Shown: positions 11,144 through 62,187 of the stretch, in pieces
Layout: each line of letters starts with the position of its first letter
How positions within the stretch are numbered: the first letter of the stretch is position 1
NCBI GenBank assembly: GCA_029858505.1
Contig: JAOUEW010000002.1
Coordinates: forward strand, 540,851 to 604,850
DNA: 64,000 nt
Origin: Deltaproteobacteria bacterium
GTDB lineage: Bacteria; SAR324; JACQKK01
Direction of reading: 5' to 3'
The notes under the pieces: generated by a model
Database searches by the model: none
The model's input: the letters and a program-made list of their open reading frames with translations, nothing else
What the model was told of the DNA's origin: nothing
Position numbers and translations under genes: made by a program

Positions 11144-11317
11144 GGGGGGTAACACCCAATTAGAGGAGAGGGGAGAAGGCCAGAGAATCGGCATCTCTTG
11201 GTCCGACAATACCCTGCCGGTGGGGCCGGGGAAAATCCCTGGTCTTTCTTGAAAATATCACATATTTTTTTCCTATCCAATCAAAGCCCCCACTTTTCTT
11301 CAAAAGAAGGGATTTCC

Positions 11318-12943
11318 ATGAACGATTTGACCCTGGCGGAAAAAGAAATGCTGGCCCCGTTCGTGACCAACACGGAAGGGCCGGTGTTTGTCTTAACCAA
11401 CCTGCCGGAAGTGGTGAAAGGGGCCTTGTTTTCACGCTATTCCCGCTCTTCCCTGGGGTTAAGGGAGCTTTTGGTGAAGGAGTTTTTAGGGGCGTCGGAA
11501 GCGGAATTGGGAGACATGCTGGCCAATGCTTCTGCTGGAGACTTGGCCCGTAAAATGTTTCAAGCGGTGTCTAAGGCCCAGTCTTTTTATGACCGCATTC
11601 TGGATGGGTACGGAGATGATTCCATTGGGGAGTTGGGGGGGGCCCATTTGGCGCTGGAAGGGGTTTCGATGCTGGCAACCAAAGCCGTGGAAGACGCCCG
11701 TATTGGGGGGTCACCCCTGGAGAAATCCACCCGTTACGTGTCGTTTGCTGACAAAGCGAACGGGGAATACCGCTTTTATCAGGAACCCCGCCTAATGGCC
11801 GCCCATGGGGATTTATACCTGAATACCTGCCGCTCCTTGTTCGAGGGCTACAAAGACATGATTCCCCAGCTGACCCTGCATCTTCAGCAGCGGATGCCTC
11901 GGGAGGAGGGGGTATCCGAGGCCGCGTGGCTGCGCAGCGTAAAAGCCCGTGCCCTGGATGGACTGCGGGGGCTGTTACCAGCGGCCACCCTCACCAATAT
12001 GGGGGTATTCGGCAATGGGCGATTCTTTGAAACGCTCCTCATCCGGCTGGGGGTCTCTCACCTGACGGAGTTGAATCACTTGGCCAGGGATGCGGGCAGG
12101 GAGTTGAACAAGGTCATTCCATCGCTTATTCGCCGGGCAGACCCAGGTCACCGTCACTTTGAGGGATTTCAACGTTTCTATACGCATTACCATGCGGCGG
12201 TGAAAGACACGGCCACCACGGCGTTGTTTCCAGACCGAGAGGCTTCCTCGCTGCCGGAAGGGGGTGTGAACTTGGTGGATTGGGACCGGGACGCGGAAAC
12301 CCGCTTGTTGGCCAGTTTGGTGTATCCAGAAACGGATTTGCCCTTGGATCGATTACGAGCTTGGGCGGAGGGATTAACCGATGAAGACAAAACCGCCCTG
12401 TTCAAAACCCTGACGGACACCCGAGAAAACCGCCGTCATAAGCTGGGACGGGAATTGGAAATGGTTGAATATACGTTTGATTTGTTAGGTGATTTCGGCA
12501 TGTACCGAGACATGCACCGCCACCGCACGTTAACCCAGTCTCGTCAGCGCCTCACCACCCGGCATGGGTATGTTCTCCCCCCCGAAGTCGTTGAGGCTGG
12601 TCTAGAGGAACGCTTTCGTGGGTTAATGGCCCAAGCCGCCCATGCCTGGGAGGTGTTATCCGTGGAGTTTCCAGAGGAAGCCCAGTATGTGGTGCCCATG
12701 GCTTTCCGTGTTAGGTGGTTATGGAAGGTAAATCTGCGGGCGCTGTGCTGGCTGTTGGAACTGCGCAGCCAGCCCCAGGGGCATCCAGCCTACCGTGAGA
12801 TGGCTCAAAAAATGTTCCGACGGATTGAACAGGTGCATCCCCGGCTGGCTAGTTTGTTGCGCTTTGTGGATTTACACGACTATCCCCTGGGCAGGCTGGG
12901 GGCCGAACAACGGCTAGAGGAAAAACGACAGGAAAAAAAATGA
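11318..12943 (+). CDS. Tandem ThyX-like (FAD-dependent thymidylate synthase family) protein
   Basis: A 541-residue protein with two regions that each recall ThyX. The N-terminal half has YGDDSIGELGGAHLALEGVS near residue 98 and SPLEKSTRYVSF near 132, compare the ThyX ExSxRY element. The C-terminal half has FGMYRDMHRHRTLTQSRQRLTTRHGYVLPPEV near 430, compare the RHRxxSxxxxR flavin/dUMP motif. Normal ThyX is about 220-300 residues, so this is a duplicated, diverged form with the signature split between halves. Whether it makes dTMP is unclear. Start ATG 11318 has AGAAGGGA upstream. lipA overlaps its stop by 4 bp (ATGA). Confidence 0.75.
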   Translation: MNDLTLAEKEMLAPFVTNTEGPVFVLTNLPEVVKGALFSRYSRSSLGLRELLVKEFLGASEAELGDMLANASAGDLARKMFQAVSKAQSFYDRILDGYGDDSIGELGGAHLALEGVSMLATKAVEDARIGGSPLEKSTRYVSFADKANGEYRFYQEPRLMAAHGDLYLNTCRSLFEGYKDMIPQLTLHLQQRMPREEGVSEAAWLRSVKARALDGLRGLLPAATLTNMGVFGNGRFFETLLIRLGVSHLTELNHLARDAGRELNKVIPSLIRRADPGHRHFEGFQRFYTHYHAAVKDTATTALFPDREASSLPEGGVNLVDWDRDAETRLLASLVYPETDLPLDRLRAWAEGLTDEDKTALFKTLTDTRENRRHKLGRELEMVEYTFDLLGDFGMYRDMHRHRTLTQSRQRLTTRHGYVLPPEVVEAGLEERFRGLMAQAAHAWEVLSVEFPEEAQYVVPMAFRVRWLWKVNLRALCWLLELRSQPQGHPAYREMAQKMFRRIEQVHPRLASLLRFVDLHDYPLGRLGAEQRLEEKRQEKK

Positions 12944-23393: not shown

Positions 23394-24317
23394 TCATGAC
23401 TTGATAAATGCTTGACCAACCCACAACTGAAAAATATCACGAGGTTGTGAAACGAAGGTGATGGTTTGATCGGTGACTGGGTGTGGGACAGAAAGAGACG
23501 TTGCGTGTAGCAGATGCCTTGCGTCGGATGAACGATGATCATTGTCCACAGAATGTCGGAAATCATCGTCTGTTATGCCATAGAGTTTATCCCCATAAAC
23601 AGGAAAGCCTAAATGGTAGGCATGGGCCCTGATTTGATGGGTACGCCCGGTGACCGGCACGACCCTCACCAAGCTGGCCCCATCCAATCGGGCCAGCAAT
23701 TGAAAACGAGTGATACATGGGCGCCCTTCTGGCAGCACCGTTTGGCGGATATGAATGGTGCTGGCGGGGTCTTTTCCCAAGGGGGCGTTCACCACAACCT
23801 CCTTTGCTGGGAAGGCCCCCTTCAAAATGGCCGTGTAGGTTTTTTCAACCTTCCCCTCCCCAAATATTTTACCCAATTTCCCGGCGGCTTCTGGTGTTTT
23901 GGCGAACAAATTCACACCGCTGGTCTCTCGGTCTAACCGATGCACCGCATGGAGGCGATCCATCCCCAGGTCATCTTTAAGGATGTGCACCAGACAATTG
24001 TTCCAATATTTCCCAGAAGGGCTGGTGGGGATATTCCCGGATTTTTCCACCGCCAACAGGTGATCATCCTGGAATAAGATTCGGTAACGGGCGTCCACCT
24101 CCGGCTCCTGTTGTTCCGGTCGGTCGTAGGTGATTTTCTGGTGAGATTCCAGGGGGTGATGGGGGAGGATTTTACGGCCGTTGACCGTAACCCTGCCTTC
24201 CATGATCCGGTCAATCCATTCGGCTTGGTTATGGTAACGAAACCGTCGGCACAGGAATTCTAATATTGTTTCAGGGCCTTGAACCCCAACCACATATTGA
24301 AACGTGAGTTTTGGCAT
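23394..24317 (-). CDS. RluA-family 23S rRNA/tRNA pseudouridine synthase
   Basis: A 307-residue RNA-modifying enzyme. The catalytic Asp lies in HRLDRETSGVNLFAKT (RluA motif II, about residue 130). Other family motifs are ILFQDDHLLAVEKSGNIPTSPSG and PVTGRTHQIRAHAYHLGFPVYGDKLYG. The N-terminal 70 residues look like an S4-like RNA-binding region (IDRIMEGRVTVNGRKI). The target uridine cannot be inferred. It starts 6 bp after the recombinase stop on the same strand, so the two are probably co-transcribed even though their functions differ. Confidence 0.9.
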   Translation of the reverse strand: MPKLTFQYVVGVQGPETILEFLCRRFRYHNQAEWIDRIMEGRVTVNGRKILPHHPLESHQKITYDRPEQQEPEVDARYRILFQDDHLLAVEKSGNIPTSPSGKYWNNCLVHILKDDLGMDRLHAVHRLDRETSGVNLFAKTPEAAGKLGKIFGEGKVEKTYTAILKGAFPAKEVVVNAPLGKDPASTIHIRQTVLPEGRPCITRFQLLARLDGASLVRVVPVTGRTHQIRAHAYHLGFPVYGDKLYGITDDDFRHSVDNDHRSSDARHLLHATSLSVPHPVTDQTITFVSQPRDIFQLWVGQAFIKS

Positions 24318-24323
24318 ACCGGT

Positions 24324-25268
24324 TTAATACACGCCTTTCAGGGCCTTGCTGGTTTGGTTGCGGTCATAGCGCAGGGTGGTATCCGCTCGTTTATGGCGCA
24401 GGTGTTTGGCTACCATGTTCAGGGGAACCGATTGCTCCAATAGGTAGGTTGCGCAGCCAGCCCTGAGTGAATGCCCTCCAAACCGAGCTGGGTCAAAGCC
24501 ACATTGTTGGGCTGCCTGTTTAATGATGATACCAATGGAAACCGTGGACAACGAGGGGCCCAGTACCCCCTGACGACTGATCGACCTAAATACGGCTCCT
24601 TCTCGAAGGTTCGCCCAACCCAACCATGATTCCAAGGCTTTTACTGGGCAAAACAAGGGAGTCTGGTGGGATGGAACGATATGGACCCATTCCCCTTTAC
24701 CTTCCTGATCTGACTTAGAAAACTGGAGTAAAACTTGAACCCCACCCTTTGAAAACGCAAGGTCGTTCACCTGAATGCCCGCTAATTCTGAACGCCGGAA
24801 TCCTCCAGCGAAACCCAGCAATAACAAAGCTTTGTTTCTTAGACTTTTCGGAGATGAATCGAATGGGAGCAGGCGAATGTGCTCAATGGTCAACGCGTCT
24901 TTTGAAGATTGGCGTGATCCGTGGGTTCTCTTAATACCGCTCAAGGTAGCTTTTACCTGAGAGGTAAGCCCGGGAGCGGGTAAGCCAGCCATCCGATGGA
25001 CCGTATCCAAGGCCCATTTGGCCTGTTCGATGGAAGCCGCCTTAAGCCCGCCTTCCGCTAAAAAGGCCAAGAAGCTCTCCATGGTGGAAGGTTCGATGGG
25101 AAATTCTGGAATGCGTTTGTTTTTGCTCCAATGACTGAACTTTTTTAGATTTTTTTCCAAGGCCCGTTGGGTCTCCCAGGAGAGGGAAGCCTGCCGGTAT
25201 TGTTGAACCCTTGGGTCTATTTCAGTTTGAATCAAACTGGATGTTTGCTTGACGAGTGGTTTGTCCAT
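24324..25268 (-). CDS. Tyrosine recombinase / integrase
   Basis: A 314-residue site-specific recombinase of the phage-integrase superfamily. The N-terminal core-binding (SAM-like) domain spans about residues 20-115. The catalytic domain has Arg158 (AGGFRRSEL), Lys185 (FSKSD), His266 and Arg269 (GGHSLRAG), His292 (HLRHK) and nucleophile Tyr301 (TLRYDR). All are present, so it should be active. The HSLRAG form is nearer to mobile-element and Cre-like recombinases than to XerC/XerD, which have HxLRH. Its size is Xer-like and it lacks the extra integron-integrase segment. A 13-6-13 inverted repeat lies 40 bp upstream and lexA diverges from it. Confidence 0.9.
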   Translation of the reverse strand: MDKPLVKQTSSLIQTEIDPRVQQYRQASLSWETQRALEKNLKKFSHWSKNKRIPEFPIEPSTMESFLAFLAEGGLKAASIEQAKWALDTVHRMAGLPAPGLTSQVKATLSGIKRTHGSRQSSKDALTIEHIRLLPFDSSPKSLRNKALLLLGFAGGFRRSELAGIQVNDLAFSKGGVQVLLQFSKSDQEGKGEWVHIVPSHQTPLFCPVKALESWLGWANLREGAVFRSISRQGVLGPSLSTVSIGIIIKQAAQQCGFDPARFGGHSLRAGCATYLLEQSVPLNMVAKHLRHKRADTTLRYDRNQTSKALKGVY

Positions 25269-25308
25269 GGATATTGGTCCTGGTTTTCATCCCAATTTGT
25301 GAAAAAAT

Positions 25309-25340
25309 TAGGTTATGGTAATGACACTTACCGTAACCTA
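25309..25340. other. 13-6-13 inverted repeat, candidate recombination core site
   Basis: Arms TAGGTTATGGTAA (25309-25321) and TTACCGTAACCTA (25328-25340) are complementary at 12 of 13 positions around the 6-bp centre TGACAC. The inner part, GTAA-TG----TTAC, has the same layout as dif sites (11-bp arms, 6-bp centre, TAA/TTA at the inner ends), and the arm length equals that of loxP. It lies 40 bp upstream of the recombinase start codon, as difSL lies next to xerS in streptococci. On the minus strand the stem is followed by ATTTTTT, so a weak terminator or a 5' leader hairpin is an alternative. Confidence 0.5.
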
Positions 25341-25350
25341 TACAAAACAG

Positions 25351-25379
25351 AAAATAAATATCCTTGACAAAAAATTCAA
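25351..25379 (-). promoter_or_regulatory. Candidate promoter of the recombinase gene
   Basis: On the minus strand TTGAAT (25379-25374) and TATTTT (25356-25351) are spaced by 17 bp. Transcription would begin close to 25344, so the 13-6-13 inverted repeat would lie at the very 5' end of the mRNA. It overlaps the lexA promoter region on the other strand. Confidence 0.4.
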
Positions 25380-25393
25380 ATATCGTGTACTTA
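25364..25393 (+). promoter_or_regulatory. Candidate lexA promoter
   Basis: A perfect TTGACA (25364-25369) is followed after 18 bp by TACTTA (25388-25393) as a -10 candidate. The -10 falls inside the 16-bp palindrome, so a repressor bound there would block RNA polymerase. The leader to the lexA ATG would be about 115 nt. Confidence 0.5.
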
Positions 25394-25400
25394 TGTACAC
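25385..25400. promoter_or_regulatory. Perfect palindrome, candidate LexA operator
   Basis: GTGTAC-TTAT-GTACAC is a perfect inverted repeat with 6-bp arms. Its GTAC-N4-GTAC core resembles the GTAC-N4-GTWC type of LexA box described in cyanobacteria and differs from the E. coli CTGT-N8-ACAG box. It overlaps the -10 of the candidate lexA promoter and abuts the -35 of the candidate recombinase promoter. Autoregulation of lexA makes this the natural place for its operator. I saw no second copy elsewhere in the window. Confidence 0.6.
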
Positions 25401-25515: not shown

Positions 25516-26139
25516 ATGAGTAAAAATCTCACCGACCGCCAGCAAGAAATTCTTCACTTTATTGAAGAACATATTCGCCTTCATGGGTATTCCCCATCGG
25601 TGCGGGATATTCAGCACCATTTCCGGCTGGCCTCTCCCTCGGGCATTCAAAAGCATATCGAAGCCTTGGTTTCTAAAGGGTACCTATCCAAAGAAGGATT
25701 GATTTCACGCTCCCTACGCCCCATTCAGGAGGGGAAACCAACCCCCATATTCCCCTATATCGATCTTCCTTTGGCGGGTTTTGTGGCCGCCGGGCAGCCC
25801 ATTGAAGCCATCGAACAATTCGACTCCATTTCCGTCCCCTCTTTTTTGGCCAGCACCACCCATGCCCATTATGTTCTTAGGGTAAAAGGTGATTCCATGA
25901 TCGAGGACAACGTGCAAGATGGGGATTACGTGATTCTTGACCCCAGAGACACCGCGGCCAACGGAGAAATGGTGGTTGCCTTAATTCATGGTGGAGAAGC
26001 CACCTTAAAACGCTATTACCACGAAGGGCATCGCATTCGTTTACAGCCCAAAAATCCGGGCATGGAACCGATCTACCTTCGGGAAGATGAGGTCAAAATC
26101 CAGGGGGTCGTGGTGGGCATTTGGAGAATGTATAAGTAA
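25516..26139 (+). CDS. lexA: LexA repressor (SOS regulator)
   Basis: A 207-residue transcriptional repressor that self-cleaves when activated by RecA on single-stranded DNA. An N-terminal winged helix (about residues 1-68, LTDRQQEILHFIEEHI) precedes the S24 peptidase domain. The cleavage site is Ala92-Gly93 (FVAAGQPI), the catalytic Ser127 is in GDSMIEDNV and Lys165 in ATLKRYY. The whole apparatus is intact. The recognition helix (about 28-44) differs from E. coli LexA, in line with a different operator. Only a weak ribosome site precedes ATG 25516. The divergent neighbour is a tyrosine recombinase rather than recA or a polymerase gene. Confidence 0.95.
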   Translation: MSKNLTDRQQEILHFIEEHIRLHGYSPSVRDIQHHFRLASPSGIQKHIEALVSKGYLSKEGLISRSLRPIQEGKPTPIFPYIDLPLAGFVAAGQPIEAIEQFDSISVPSFLASTTHAHYVLRVKGDSMIEDNVQDGDYVILDPRDTAANGEMVVALIHGGEATLKRYYHEGHRIRLQPKNPGMEPIYLREDEVKIQGVVVGIWRMYK

Positions 26140-29052: not shown

Positions 29053-31497
29053 CTAAATGGAAGCCATATCCGGTTCTGCCATGGGTGGGGTTTTCCCATC
29101 CTCTTTGTCTTTTTCCATGGCATCCAGTCTTTTTTCTTCTTCGGCCATTTCTTCCGGGGTCAGGGGCTTGGGGGGCCGCACCAACGCAATGGCGATCACT
29201 TCCATCAAGGAATGAACGGGAGAGATTTTCAACCCGCTCAGAATTTCCTTGTGGATGTCGGCCAAATCTTTTTCGTTTTCCCCTGGAATGATGACTTCTT
29301 GGATGCGCCCCCGTTTGGCGGCCAAAAGTTTTTCCTTCAATCCGCCAATTTGCAAAACCAACCCGCGCAGGGTCAGTTCTCCAGTCATGGCCACGTCGTT
29401 TCGCACCGGAATTCCGGTCAAAGCGCTCACCAGAGAGGTTACCAGGGTAATCCCGGCGGAAGGCCCATCTTTGGGGGTGGCCCCCTCTGGCAGGTGGATA
29501 TGTATGTCTAGTTTTTTCAGCTTGGAGGGAAAAATTCCAAATTCGTAAGCGTTTGATCGGACATAACTATACGCAATCTGGGCCGATTCCTTCATCACCT
29601 CACCCAATTGACCCGTGATGAAAATTCCCCCTTTTCCACGCATGGTTTCCACTTCGGTAATCAACAGCTCTCCCCCTACGCTGGTCACCCCCAACCCCGT
29701 GGTAATCCCCACCTCTCCGGCTTCTTCCGGAGGGGTGTGTTGGTATTTAGGGGCCCCCAGAAATCGCACCAGGGTTTTGGGGGTAATGATCACCTTTTGG
29801 TCAGAGTCCTTTTTCACAAGGCCTGTTACAACCTTGCGGAATACCTTTCCAATTTCCCGTTCTAACCCACGAACCCCCGCCTCCCGGGTATAACTCCTCA
29901 CCACTTCGGCCAGGGCATCCTCGCGGATACGCACTTTTTTATCGTCGAGGCCGTGTTCCGCCAACTGTTTGGGGATTAAGTGCGTTTTGGCGATGTTGAT
30001 TTTTTCCATTTCGGTGTAGCCCGGAATGGAGATTACCTCCATCCGGTCCAGCAGGGGATGGGAAATGTTCTCGGTGGAATTGGCCGTGCAAATAAACAAA
30101 GACTGAGACAGGTCGTACTCAACCTCGATGTAGTGATCCATGAAGGTGTTGTTTTGTTCGGGGTCCAACACCTCCAGCAGGGCCGCCGAGGGGTCTCCCA
30201 TAATGCTGGTGTAGAGTTTATCGACTTCGTCCATGAGGATGACCGGGTTTTTGCTGCCAGCCTTCTTGACTGCCTGAATGATTTTCCCCGGCATGGCCCC
30301 AATGTAGGTGCGGCGGTGGCCGCGAATTTCGGCTTCGTCACGAATCCCCCCCAGGCTCATGCGGGCAAATTTCCTCCCCACGGCCCGGGAAATGGATTTC
30401 GCCAGGGATGTTTTCCCAACGCCCGGCGGGCCCACCAAGCATAGGATGGGGCCCTTGAGTTCGCCCTTTAGTTTGCAAACCGCCAAATATTCCACAATGC
30501 GTTCTTTCACCTTGTCCAGCCCGTAATGGTCTTCATCCAATATTTTCTGGGCCAATTCCAGGTCAAAGGTGTCCTTGGTGGATTTGCTCCATGGAAGACT
30601 GAGCAGCCAATCCAAATAGTTTCGTCCCACGTTGGCTTCCGCCGACATGGGAGACATCATTTTTAATTTTTTCAGTTCCTTTTTAGCGATTTCTTCCGGC
30701 CCTTTGGGCATTTTGGCTTTTTTAATCTTGTCATCGTATTCCTCATACTCATCTCGAATATCCTCGGTCTGCCCCAATTCTTTTTGAATAACCTTCAATT
30801 GCTCGCTTAAATACTGGTCCCGATGAACCGAACCCACGTTTTTCTGGGCGTGTTCCTTCATCTTTTTTTCCAATTGCCGGATTTTGATTTCCTCCGACAT
30901 TTGCCCCAGCACCATCTCCAACCGCCGCAAGGGGCTTTCTTCCTCCAGCAATTTTTGTTTCCAATCCCGGGGTGAAGTGAGCAGGGGGGCAATGCGGTCC
31001 GACAGTTCAAACGGCTGGCACTCCATGATGTTGGCGTGATCAATTTCCGCCGGGCTTTTCTTATTTTCCGATGTGTATTCCATGAACATGGTTTTGGCCC
31101 GCTCAGCCAACTGGGTGATTTCTTCCCCCTCCATCTCCAGGGTGGGAAGAATTTCAACCTGGGCCAGGTAATAATCCTTGGTAATCACCGCGTCCATCAG
31201 GCGGGCCCGGCCTTTGGCCTCGTACAATGCCTTCAACGTTCCATTGGGCAGCCGCATGATCTGGAGAATGGTTCCGACGGTTCCAACCCTAAATAGATCT
31301 TCCATATCAGGGCGTTCAACAGACGTGTCTTTTTGAGTGATCACGAAGATTCCCCGATCCCCAGCCAAGGCCCGTTCCACCGCCTCCATCGATTGCTTGC
31401 GCCCGATGAAAAAGGGAATGGTCATGCCCGGGTAAATGATATCTTCCCGCATGGGTAGCATGGGAAGGGAAACAACCTGTCGGGGGATCTGATTCAT
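29053..31497 (-). CDS. lon: ATP-dependent protease Lon (second copy)
   Basis: An 814-residue LonA protease, complete: LON domain from MLPMREDIIYPGMTIPFFIGRKQS, AAA+ module with GPPGVGKTS, and S16 domain with the catalytic serine in PKDGPSAG and lysine in GGLKEK. It is closely related to the first copy through the AAA+ and protease core but differs in the N-domain loops and in the tail, which is acidic and charged here (about residues 780-814) instead of proline-rich. Such pairs usually divide general quality control and developmental or stress tasks. Start ATG 31497 has AAGGAAT just upstream. Confidence 0.95.
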   Translation of the reverse strand: MNQIPRQVVSLPMLPMREDIIYPGMTIPFFIGRKQSMEAVERALAGDRGIFVITQKDTSVERPDMEDLFRVGTVGTILQIMRLPNGTLKALYEAKGRARLMDAVITKDYYLAQVEILPTLEMEGEEITQLAERAKTMFMEYTSENKKSPAEIDHANIMECQPFELSDRIAPLLTSPRDWKQKLLEEESPLRRLEMVLGQMSEEIKIRQLEKKMKEHAQKNVGSVHRDQYLSEQLKVIQKELGQTEDIRDEYEEYDDKIKKAKMPKGPEEIAKKELKKLKMMSPMSAEANVGRNYLDWLLSLPWSKSTKDTFDLELAQKILDEDHYGLDKVKERIVEYLAVCKLKGELKGPILCLVGPPGVGKTSLAKSISRAVGRKFARMSLGGIRDEAEIRGHRRTYIGAMPGKIIQAVKKAGSKNPVILMDEVDKLYTSIMGDPSAALLEVLDPEQNNTFMDHYIEVEYDLSQSLFICTANSTENISHPLLDRMEVISIPGYTEMEKINIAKTHLIPKQLAEHGLDDKKVRIREDALAEVVRSYTREAGVRGLEREIGKVFRKVVTGLVKKDSDQKVIITPKTLVRFLGAPKYQHTPPEEAGEVGITTGLGVTSVGGELLITEVETMRGKGGIFITGQLGEVMKESAQIAYSYVRSNAYEFGIFPSKLKKLDIHIHLPEGATPKDGPSAGITLVTSLVSALTGIPVRNDVAMTGELTLRGLVLQIGGLKEKLLAAKRGRIQEVIIPGENEKDLADIHKEILSGLKISPVHSLMEVIAIALVRPPKPLTPEEMAEEEKRLDAMEKDKEDGKTPPMAEPDMASI

Positions 31498-40276: not shown

Positions 40277-41227
40277 ATGAACGAAACTCTTTCGCAACCT
40301 GACATTTCTATTGTTGCTACTGTTTACAATTCAGCTGAAATTGTTGATCAGTTGGTAATTCGAATCAAATCATCGATTGAGCCCCTCAAACTAGATTATG
40401 AAATCATCCTGGTTGATGATGGAAGCCGGGATAACTCATCGCAACGAATAGAACAACTGTCTTTGGTCACGCCAAACGTAAAGGGCCTTATCCTAAGCCG
40501 TAATTTTGGTCAACAAATTGCTATGAGCGCCGGGATTGCATATGCCCAAGGTAAGTACATTCTTATTATGGATGGAGACCTTCAGAATCCGCCAGAAGCT
40601 ATCCCAATCCTCTATCATAAAATACAGGAAGGTAACGATATTGTTTATGCCGTATCACACCAGAGAAATAATATTGTAGACAAATTATCATCTTTTATAT
40701 TTTGGGGGTTCCTAACAAAAATTATGAACGTTAACATCGTAAGAAGTCAACTCATGATGCGAATCATGACCTTTCAAGTCTCACAACTATATTTAAATTA
40801 CCCCGAAAGAATTAGAACGATTGCCGCCATCACAAACGATATCGGCATGAAATATTCAACTATAAATATTCAGAATGAAAAACGTTCATCCGGAAAAAGC
40901 AACTATAACACGATCAAAAGGTTAAATCTTGCAATTGATGTTCTGATTGATCTCTCCAATAATCCACTTAACATTCTTTTTTACAGTGGAATTATTGCTA
41001 TGTTTGCAACAATAATTACTGGAGGAGGATACCTGTATTCATATTTCAATCATGACGCCTTACCTGGGTTCACCACCCTCGTCATGCTAAACTTGCTTTT
41101 CGGTAGTATCAATCTACTCTCACTAGGAATATTGGCCAGATATCTGGCCAATATTTATACGGAAGTAAAGCGCCGCCCTCTGTTTCATGTTCGGAAAAAA
41201 TTTAATATTTCTGAGCACATAAATTAG
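40277..41227 (+). CDS. Family 2 glycosyltransferase, polyprenyl-phosphate type
   Basis: A 316-residue membrane enzyme like GtrB/ArnC/DPM1, which moves a sugar from a nucleotide donor to polyprenyl phosphate. The GT-A core has IVATVYNSAEIV, the VDDGSRDNSS block, LSRNFGQQIAMSAGIAYAQGKYILIMDGDLQNPPE (donor/metal-binding Asp residues) and an SGKSNYNTIKRL segment. Two C-terminal transmembrane helices (about 233-258 and 268-292) anchor it. It follows the methyltransferase by 8 bp and is the last gene of the AT-rich block. Confidence 0.9.
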   Translation: MNETLSQPDISIVATVYNSAEIVDQLVIRIKSSIEPLKLDYEIILVDDGSRDNSSQRIEQLSLVTPNVKGLILSRNFGQQIAMSAGIAYAQGKYILIMDGDLQNPPEAIPILYHKIQEGNDIVYAVSHQRNNIVDKLSSFIFWGFLTKIMNVNIVRSQLMMRIMTFQVSQLYLNYPERIRTIAAITNDIGMKYSTINIQNEKRSSGKSNYNTIKRLNLAIDVLIDLSNNPLNILFYSGIIAMFATIITGGGYLYSYFNHDALPGFTTLVMLNLLFGSINLLSLGILARYLANIYTEVKRRPLFHVRKKFNISEHIN

Positions 41228-62148: not shown

Positions 62149-62187
62149 TTTAGGGCATAAAATAATTTGTTTATTTTATGCCCTAAA
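62149..62187. promoter_or_regulatory. 17-bp perfect inverted repeat between lipoprotein genes
   Basis: TTTAGGGCATAAAATAA (62149-62165) pairs fully with TTATTTTATGCCCTAAA (62171-62187) around a 5-nt loop. It lies between the stop of paralogue B (62243) and the start of paralogue A (62120). It has no T-run after it beyond the stem, so it may be an mRNA hairpin that ends or protects the first gene's message, or a binding site. Confidence 0.65.

Follow-up and report, generated by a model that had tools for sequence, protein, structure and literature searches.

A Cre-like recombinase and its putative lox/dif-like site at the replication terminus of a SAR324 bacterium

In a 64-kb stretch of DNA from a marine SAR324 bacterium, referred to below as the window, a 32-bp inverted repeat next to the gene for a Cre-like tyrosine recombinase was identified as a candidate core recombination site, analogous to lox and dif. 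The site is conserved, linked to the recombinase gene, and present in a single copy in each of five SAR324 genomes. That recombinase and site form a genuine pair is given a probability of about 85%, and, with less confidence, the module probably serves in the resolution of chromosome dimers. These conclusions are based on MAG data, including a long contig around the site in one genome, and, with respect to the absence of FtsK, on profile searches.

The recombinase and the adjacent inverted repeat

The recombinase gene (24324..25268, minus strand) encodes a protein of 314 aa matching PF00589 with an E-value of 1.1e-18. The first-pass annotation had credited this protein with every catalytic residue, and a check by position confirmed the full set (Arg at 158/159, K185, H266, R269, H292, and Y301). 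It had also described the HSLRAG motif as not typical of Xer; within the large family of the recombinase, this motif turned out to be ordinary: H266, S267, R269, and G271 are invariant in an alignment of 30 members. Among solved chains, Cre was the nearest by sequence (E 3.7e-12; XerD, E 3.9e-10). The AlphaFold2 model (pLDDT 90.4, pTM 0.71) predicts a Cre-like two-domain fold. Foldseek searches with this model yielded Cre-type entries as the best 33 matches, starting from E 3.1e-15, followed by XerA (2.7e-9) and then by integron integrase and XerH (1.6e-7). The NCBIfam Xer models scored far under their cut-offs (XerD, 58.8 of 329.6 bits; XerS, 26.5 of 267 bits), and 30 phage records matched the recombinase, most of them P1-type Cre with about 25% identity. 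Judged by sequence and predicted fold, the enzyme is Cre-like and not Xer-like.

The repeat, TAGGTTATGGTAA-TGACAC-TTACCGTAACCTA, occupies positions 25309..25340 and has no strand. Its 13-bp arms (25309-25321 and 25328-25340) are complementary at 12 of 13 positions and flank a 6-bp centre (25322-25327) that reads GTGTCA on the recombinase strand. A leader of 40 bp (25269..25308, minus strand) lies between the site and the recombinase ATG at 25268, and both sequence and coordinates of the repeat, as originally described, proved to be correct. The site contains 12 G or C residues in 32 bases on a contig of roughly 57% GC, and the GC content of its surroundings is likewise low (47-53%). A single inverted repeat whose 13-bp arms match at 12 or more positions around a 6-bp centre was observed in the 64 kb, compared to 0.1 expected from the composition of the window. 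On its own quality, leaving conservation aside, the repeat is modestly unusual and only suggestive; a chance hairpin is excluded because the same site is conserved beside orthologues. Two more inverted repeats, perfect or nearly so and with arms of 13 bp or longer, are located at 62150-62186 and 41127-41156 of the window.

It had been considered from the start that the repeat could instead act as an RNA hairpin or a weak terminator or attenuator in the 5' leader of the recombinase mRNA. The sequence ATTTTTT follows the stem on the recombinase strand, and RNA folding gave a z-score of -2.2 on this strand, but the better fold, with -4.6, is found on the other, wrong strand. The T-run in the leader is not kept in orthologues and the repeat is missing from the output of the terminator scan; on these two grounds an intrinsic terminator or leader hairpin was rejected. 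Moreover, a hairpin needs neither conserved inner bases nor a fixed spacing, while the inner bases and the spacing of 6-7 bp fit a protein site. The hairpin reading, weakened in all these respects, is regarded as extremely unlikely.

Conservation of the site, its locus, and the wider family

Close relatives of the present genome (G000, an assembly of 2.79 Mb in 14 contigs) are represented by MAGs of the SAR324 cluster. Recombinase orthologues with 42-56% identity were detected in G003, G005, G006 (two), G008, and G044, and a fragment was present at a contig end in G002. In a tree of 85 sequences, the SAR324 recombinases form a single clade with support of 100/99. When DNA upstream of the SAR324 orthologues was aligned, the site was the sole conserved block. 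The SAR324 site pattern, TTMYGGTAA-N6-TTAYCRNWA with at most one mismatch, matched exactly once each in G000, G003, G005, G006, and G008, in every case immediately in front of the recombinase gene, and it had no match in the family genomes without a detected gene (G001, G004, G007, and G009). In the SAR324 genes, the site is found 10-45 bp upstream of the start, and its centres differ (GTGTCA, GTGCCA, TGGCAC, and TTAAGA). A search of related genomes for the repeat beside the recombinase, suggested by the first-pass annotation, thus revealed that the pairing is kept in five SAR324 genomes and, as described below, across phyla. Copies of the gene lacking the site were also encountered. The second copy in G006 (L034, on contig C100), which is near lexA with a sugar-nucleotide gene in between, has no upstream site, and for the orthologue L037 of family f4 no clear repeat was apparent; a dyad was sought at 10/11 and none was found.

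The recombinase is not universal in SAR324, since G001, G004, and G009 (73-89% complete) are devoid of it, and of lexA as well, and the gene is absent from the sister family f2. For G007, absence is not established because its contig, which carries lexA and lon, ends upstream of lexA within a sugar-nucleotide gene; the counterpart of this gene in G006 sits between lexA and the recombinase gene. Most f2 genomes (L009-L030 except L010, L015, and L018) contain a conserved tyrosine recombinase of ~329 aa with the motif HYLRHTAI and without a strong adjacent dyad, which is possibly the equivalent enzyme in this family.

The locus is conserved along with the site. The module has lexA as its neighbour in SAR324 (25516..26139, plus strand; TIGR00498, 193 bits, above cut-off), and lexA is near the recombinase gene in G000, G002, G005, G006, and G008. 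In the region from which lexA and the recombinase gene diverge, the perfect 16-bp palindrome GTGTACTTATGTACAC (25385..25400) lies upstream of lexA and, as judged from its sequence, is probably a LexA box with the pattern GTAC-N4-GTAC; the DNA upstream of lexA in G007 contains GAAC-N4-GTTC instead. On the side opposite to lexA, a gene for an rluA-type pseudouridine synthase follows (23394..24317, minus strand; TIGR00005, 216 bits, above cut-off), and beyond lexA a gene for a lon-type protease is located (29053..31497, minus strand). The order HD-GAF, dsbA, a gene of unknown function, rluA, recombinase and site, lexA, and lon is common to G000, G005, and G008, and parts of this order are present in G006, G003, and G002; its conserved core is rluA-recombinase-lexA-lon. 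Relative to its neighbours, the recombinase-site module is flipped between G000/G003 and G005/G006/G008. Vertical inheritance of the module at a conserved chromosomal locus appears to be the best reading of these arrangements. Elsewhere in the window (11198-12943, plus strand), a protein of 581 aa with two Thy1 (ThyX) matches is encoded, which is unusually long for a thymidylate-synthase-type enzyme.

Low local GC and the frequent occurrence of the wider family on plasmids and viral contigs could indicate that the repeat is an attachment site, attL or attR, of an integrated plasmid or genomic island. No second copy with up to three mismatches was detected in the genome, however, the neighbours are housekeeping genes in a locus syntenic across SAR324 genera, and the recombinases belong to one SAR324 clade, which makes an attachment site very unlikely. 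An integrated island with a flanking att pair was rejected, the site being a single copy in a syntenic housekeeping locus.

The wider set comprised 156 upstream regions of relatives, mostly with 30-50% identity, from many phyla, plasmids, and IMG/VR contigs. The consensus of their sites is ACTTCCGATAA-N6/7-TTATCGGAAGT, with ACTTCCGATAA as half-site. Scores of at least 15, based on dyad plus inner motif, were reached by 54% of these regions and by 5.9% of 4717 control windows; the spacing was 6 bp in 56 cases, 7 bp in 25, and 5 bp in three. A search for the best dyad alone was noisy in GC-rich genomes, and covariation was therefore tested on sites chosen without regard to the dyad. Sites were picked by the inner ten bases alone, a cut that 5.8% of control windows also pass, resulting in 64 distinct sites from 161 loci. 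Their outer six-base arms matched at 3.69 of six positions within a locus, compared to 2.47 after shuffling between loci (maximum of 2000 shuffles, 2.86). Both arms therefore evolve together, as in a dimer site. With the repeat kept beside orthologues and its arms covarying, the initial proposal of a self-contained recombinase-site module is supported. In the wider family, the right arm frequently reads TTCTCGG where the left arm implies TTATCGG, and this asymmetric third base may determine the order in which strands are exchanged.

At the search sensitivity used, family relatives were detected in 2830 plasmid records, and in viral contigs as well. They include plasmid proteins designated 'site-specific integrases' in Methylobacterium, Acetobacter, Komagataeibacter, and relatives, which share about 35% identity with the SAR324 recombinase; in several circular plasmids with complete sequences, they are likewise accompanied by a single related palindromic site. 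These systems are plasmid-borne, and their arm core is GATAA/TTATC or GGGAA/TTCCC, in contrast to GGTAA/TTACC in SAR324. Among eight complete small plasmids, one strong site each was found in five (L271, L273, L274, L277, and L278), and in some plasmids, for example L278, it is about 1 kb away from the gene. The role of these plasmid systems is probably multimer resolution.

The sites in SAR324 are in the promoter or leader region, 10-45 bp in front of the gene, and many members of the wider family also keep the site near the start. Such positions would be expected if the repeat were mainly an operator, at which the recombinase or another dimeric regulator represses the recombinase gene, with the true crossover site, if any, elsewhere. 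Conserved inner TAA/TTA, a fixed centre of 6-7 bp, and one site per replicon are features of core sites, though, and the distance of about 1 kb in some plasmids as well as the lack of a second copy to serve as crossover site also speak against an operator. Autoregulation by a core site would, in addition, be compatible with recombination. A mainly regulatory function is accordingly considered unlikely.

Position at the terminus and the usual dimer-resolution machinery

The contig harboring the site (C5, 646 kb) is chromosomal, since it carries pheT, lipA, gltX, lexA, the gene for RNase R, and eight tRNA genes. Its cumulative GC skew increases up to a plateau from 520 to 567 kb and drops after 567 kb, with values of 14652 at 520 kb and 14638, a local maximum, at 566 kb. 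The site, at 566,159, is located at the end of this plateau. On contig C4, which was sampled, dnaA is found at 37 kb, and the skew is negative before and mostly positive after this position. In this one genome, the single site sits at the replication terminus. On the contig of G005, the skew increases and levels off near the site, in weak agreement with a terminus. For proteobacterial dif sites, a median distance of 7.3 kb from the skew peak has been reported (PMC2731167). The first-pass annotation had suggested looking for extra copies near the terminus: a second copy was not detected at up to three mismatches, and it is the site itself that is at the terminus. When KOPS-like octamers flipping at the site were looked for, only a weak G-rich skew was seen, in keeping with the absence of FtsK.

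In profile searches, the FtsK motor domain PF01580 had no match in any of the ten family genomes, and PF09397 had none in G000. Among the genomes of SAR324 families f1 and f2 (G000-G040), PF01580 was also absent from most of the sister family, with weak matches only in G026 and G032, leaving nearly the entire SAR324 order without a detected FtsK/SpoIIIE motor. The same FtsK search was positive in outgroups, with strong scores, and in 10 of 14 genomes used as controls. Canonical dif was not found in the SAR324 family when up to one mismatch was allowed, and G000 has one match with two mismatches, which is at chance level. A XerC/D-type protein is present in both SAR324 families (C4:814700-815557 in G000; equivalents in G002-G005, G008, G010-G013, G020, G025, G029, and G036), but in every copy checked the catalytic residues R-I, H-II, and H-III are changed to K, R, and Y, respectively, whereas outgroup copies have the canonical residues. 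This homologue is apparently inactive, as far as can be deduced from its residues, yet retained across two SAR324 families. A classical XerCD/dif system, that is, two intact recombinases plus canonical dif, was thus not found. In G044, only one match to the XerD model was obtained; as the orthologue itself belongs to the tyrosine recombinases, it is probably this match. Besides the Cre-like enzyme, G000 encodes two tyrosine recombinases with a complete catalytic set, at C4:493734 and C12:6981, and either could resolve dimers instead.

These data also bear on the idea that recombinase and site are a genuine pair but constitute a relic or selfish cassette derived from a plasmid, of the type resolving plasmid multimers and without chromosomal role. 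Relatives outside SAR324 are often plasmid-borne with one site each, and the gene is missing from several SAR324 genomes. Against this, an intact catalytic set and the site have been maintained across 43-56% protein identity at one and the same locus, situated at the terminus, and this in a lineage in which neither FtsK nor dif nor an intact XerCD was detected. A relic or selfish cassette is therefore judged improbable.

Proposed function and related systems

As the core site for recombination by the neighbouring Cre-like enzyme, the repeat would be bound by two monomers at its arms of 11-13 bp, a tetramer would synapse two sites, and strands would be exchanged across the 6-bp centre; binding and strand exchange are inferred from the features described above. 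Since each chromosome carries a single site, located at the terminus, the relevant reaction would take place between two copies on a dimeric or just-replicated chromosome. In this way, the module would resolve chromosome dimers prior to division and take the place of XerCD/dif in this SAR324 branch.

In the literature, nothing relevant on the site sequence and no papers on a SAR324 tyrosine recombinase or SAR324 FtsK were found. By sequence and predicted fold, the nearest known systems are of the Cre type. Cre/loxP of phage P1, Nigri/nox, and Panto/pox (PMC4957104) share with the SAR324 module a single recombinase and palindromic arms of 11-13 bp near the gene. The spacer of Cre/loxP is 8 bp, in contrast to 6 bp here and 6-7 bp in the family, so that the combination of 13-bp arms with an 8-bp spacer is not matched; the arm sequence is different as well, identity between Cre and the SAR324 recombinase is about 22-25%, and Cre is found on phage or plasmid, whereas the SAR324 locus is at a chromosomal terminus.

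XerS/difSL of streptococci and lactococci and XerH/difH of Helicobacter and Campylobacter also consist of a single recombinase with the site beside its gene (PMC5357621, PMC2731167). They have one non-coding, low-GC, palindromic site at the terminus, as observed here in one genome. Unlike the SAR324 recombinase, XerS and XerH are Xer-family proteins, and they use FtsK, which is not detectable in the SAR324 genome. The nearest precedent for replacement by a divergent single recombinase is XerL/dif of Legionellales, where classical dif/Xer is likewise lacking and a dyad-symmetric site is located at the GC-skew maximum (PMC9765430). XerL, compared here by its description, is longer, its catalytic Tyr being residue 389 in Coxiella; the xerL gene of L. 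pneumophila is more than 400 kb away from dif, and an FtsK homologue is present in Legionella (PMC9765430). The SAR324 module is best viewed as analogous to XerS/difSL, XerH/difH, and XerL/dif, but with a Cre-type enzyme. Of the two resemblances in the original dif/lox-like designation, Cre/lox is the closer one by sequence and fold, while the position, a single copy at the terminus, is dif-like.

In E. coli, Cre/loxP can stand in for XerCD/dif if loxP is placed at the terminus (PMC2731167, PMC2680272), but dimer resolution then requires translocation by FtsK (PMC2680272). The absence of FtsK is therefore puzzling, and simple synapsis must be secured otherwise in SAR324. Independence of FtsK has a precedent in archaeal XerA, which was described as FtsK-independent (PMC5357621). 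At somewhat less than even odds, a natural Cre/lox-type system originating from a family of plasmid multimer-resolution systems with diversifying recombinase-site pairs might have replaced the whole FtsK-XerCD-dif apparatus and act independently of FtsK.

Carnoy and Roten pointed out that evidence for the use of loxP/Cre-like systems by dif/Xer-deficient proteobacteria was lacking (PMC2731167). With the SAR324 locus, a specific natural candidate for such a Cre/lox-like substitute of dif/Xer is available for testing, and genome engineering could draw on the predicted pairs for new recombinases and their sites. The locus also prompts the question of how dimer resolution stays topologically simple in bacteria that lack FtsK, and the very large family of plasmid 'site-specific integrases' is now tied to predicted target sites.
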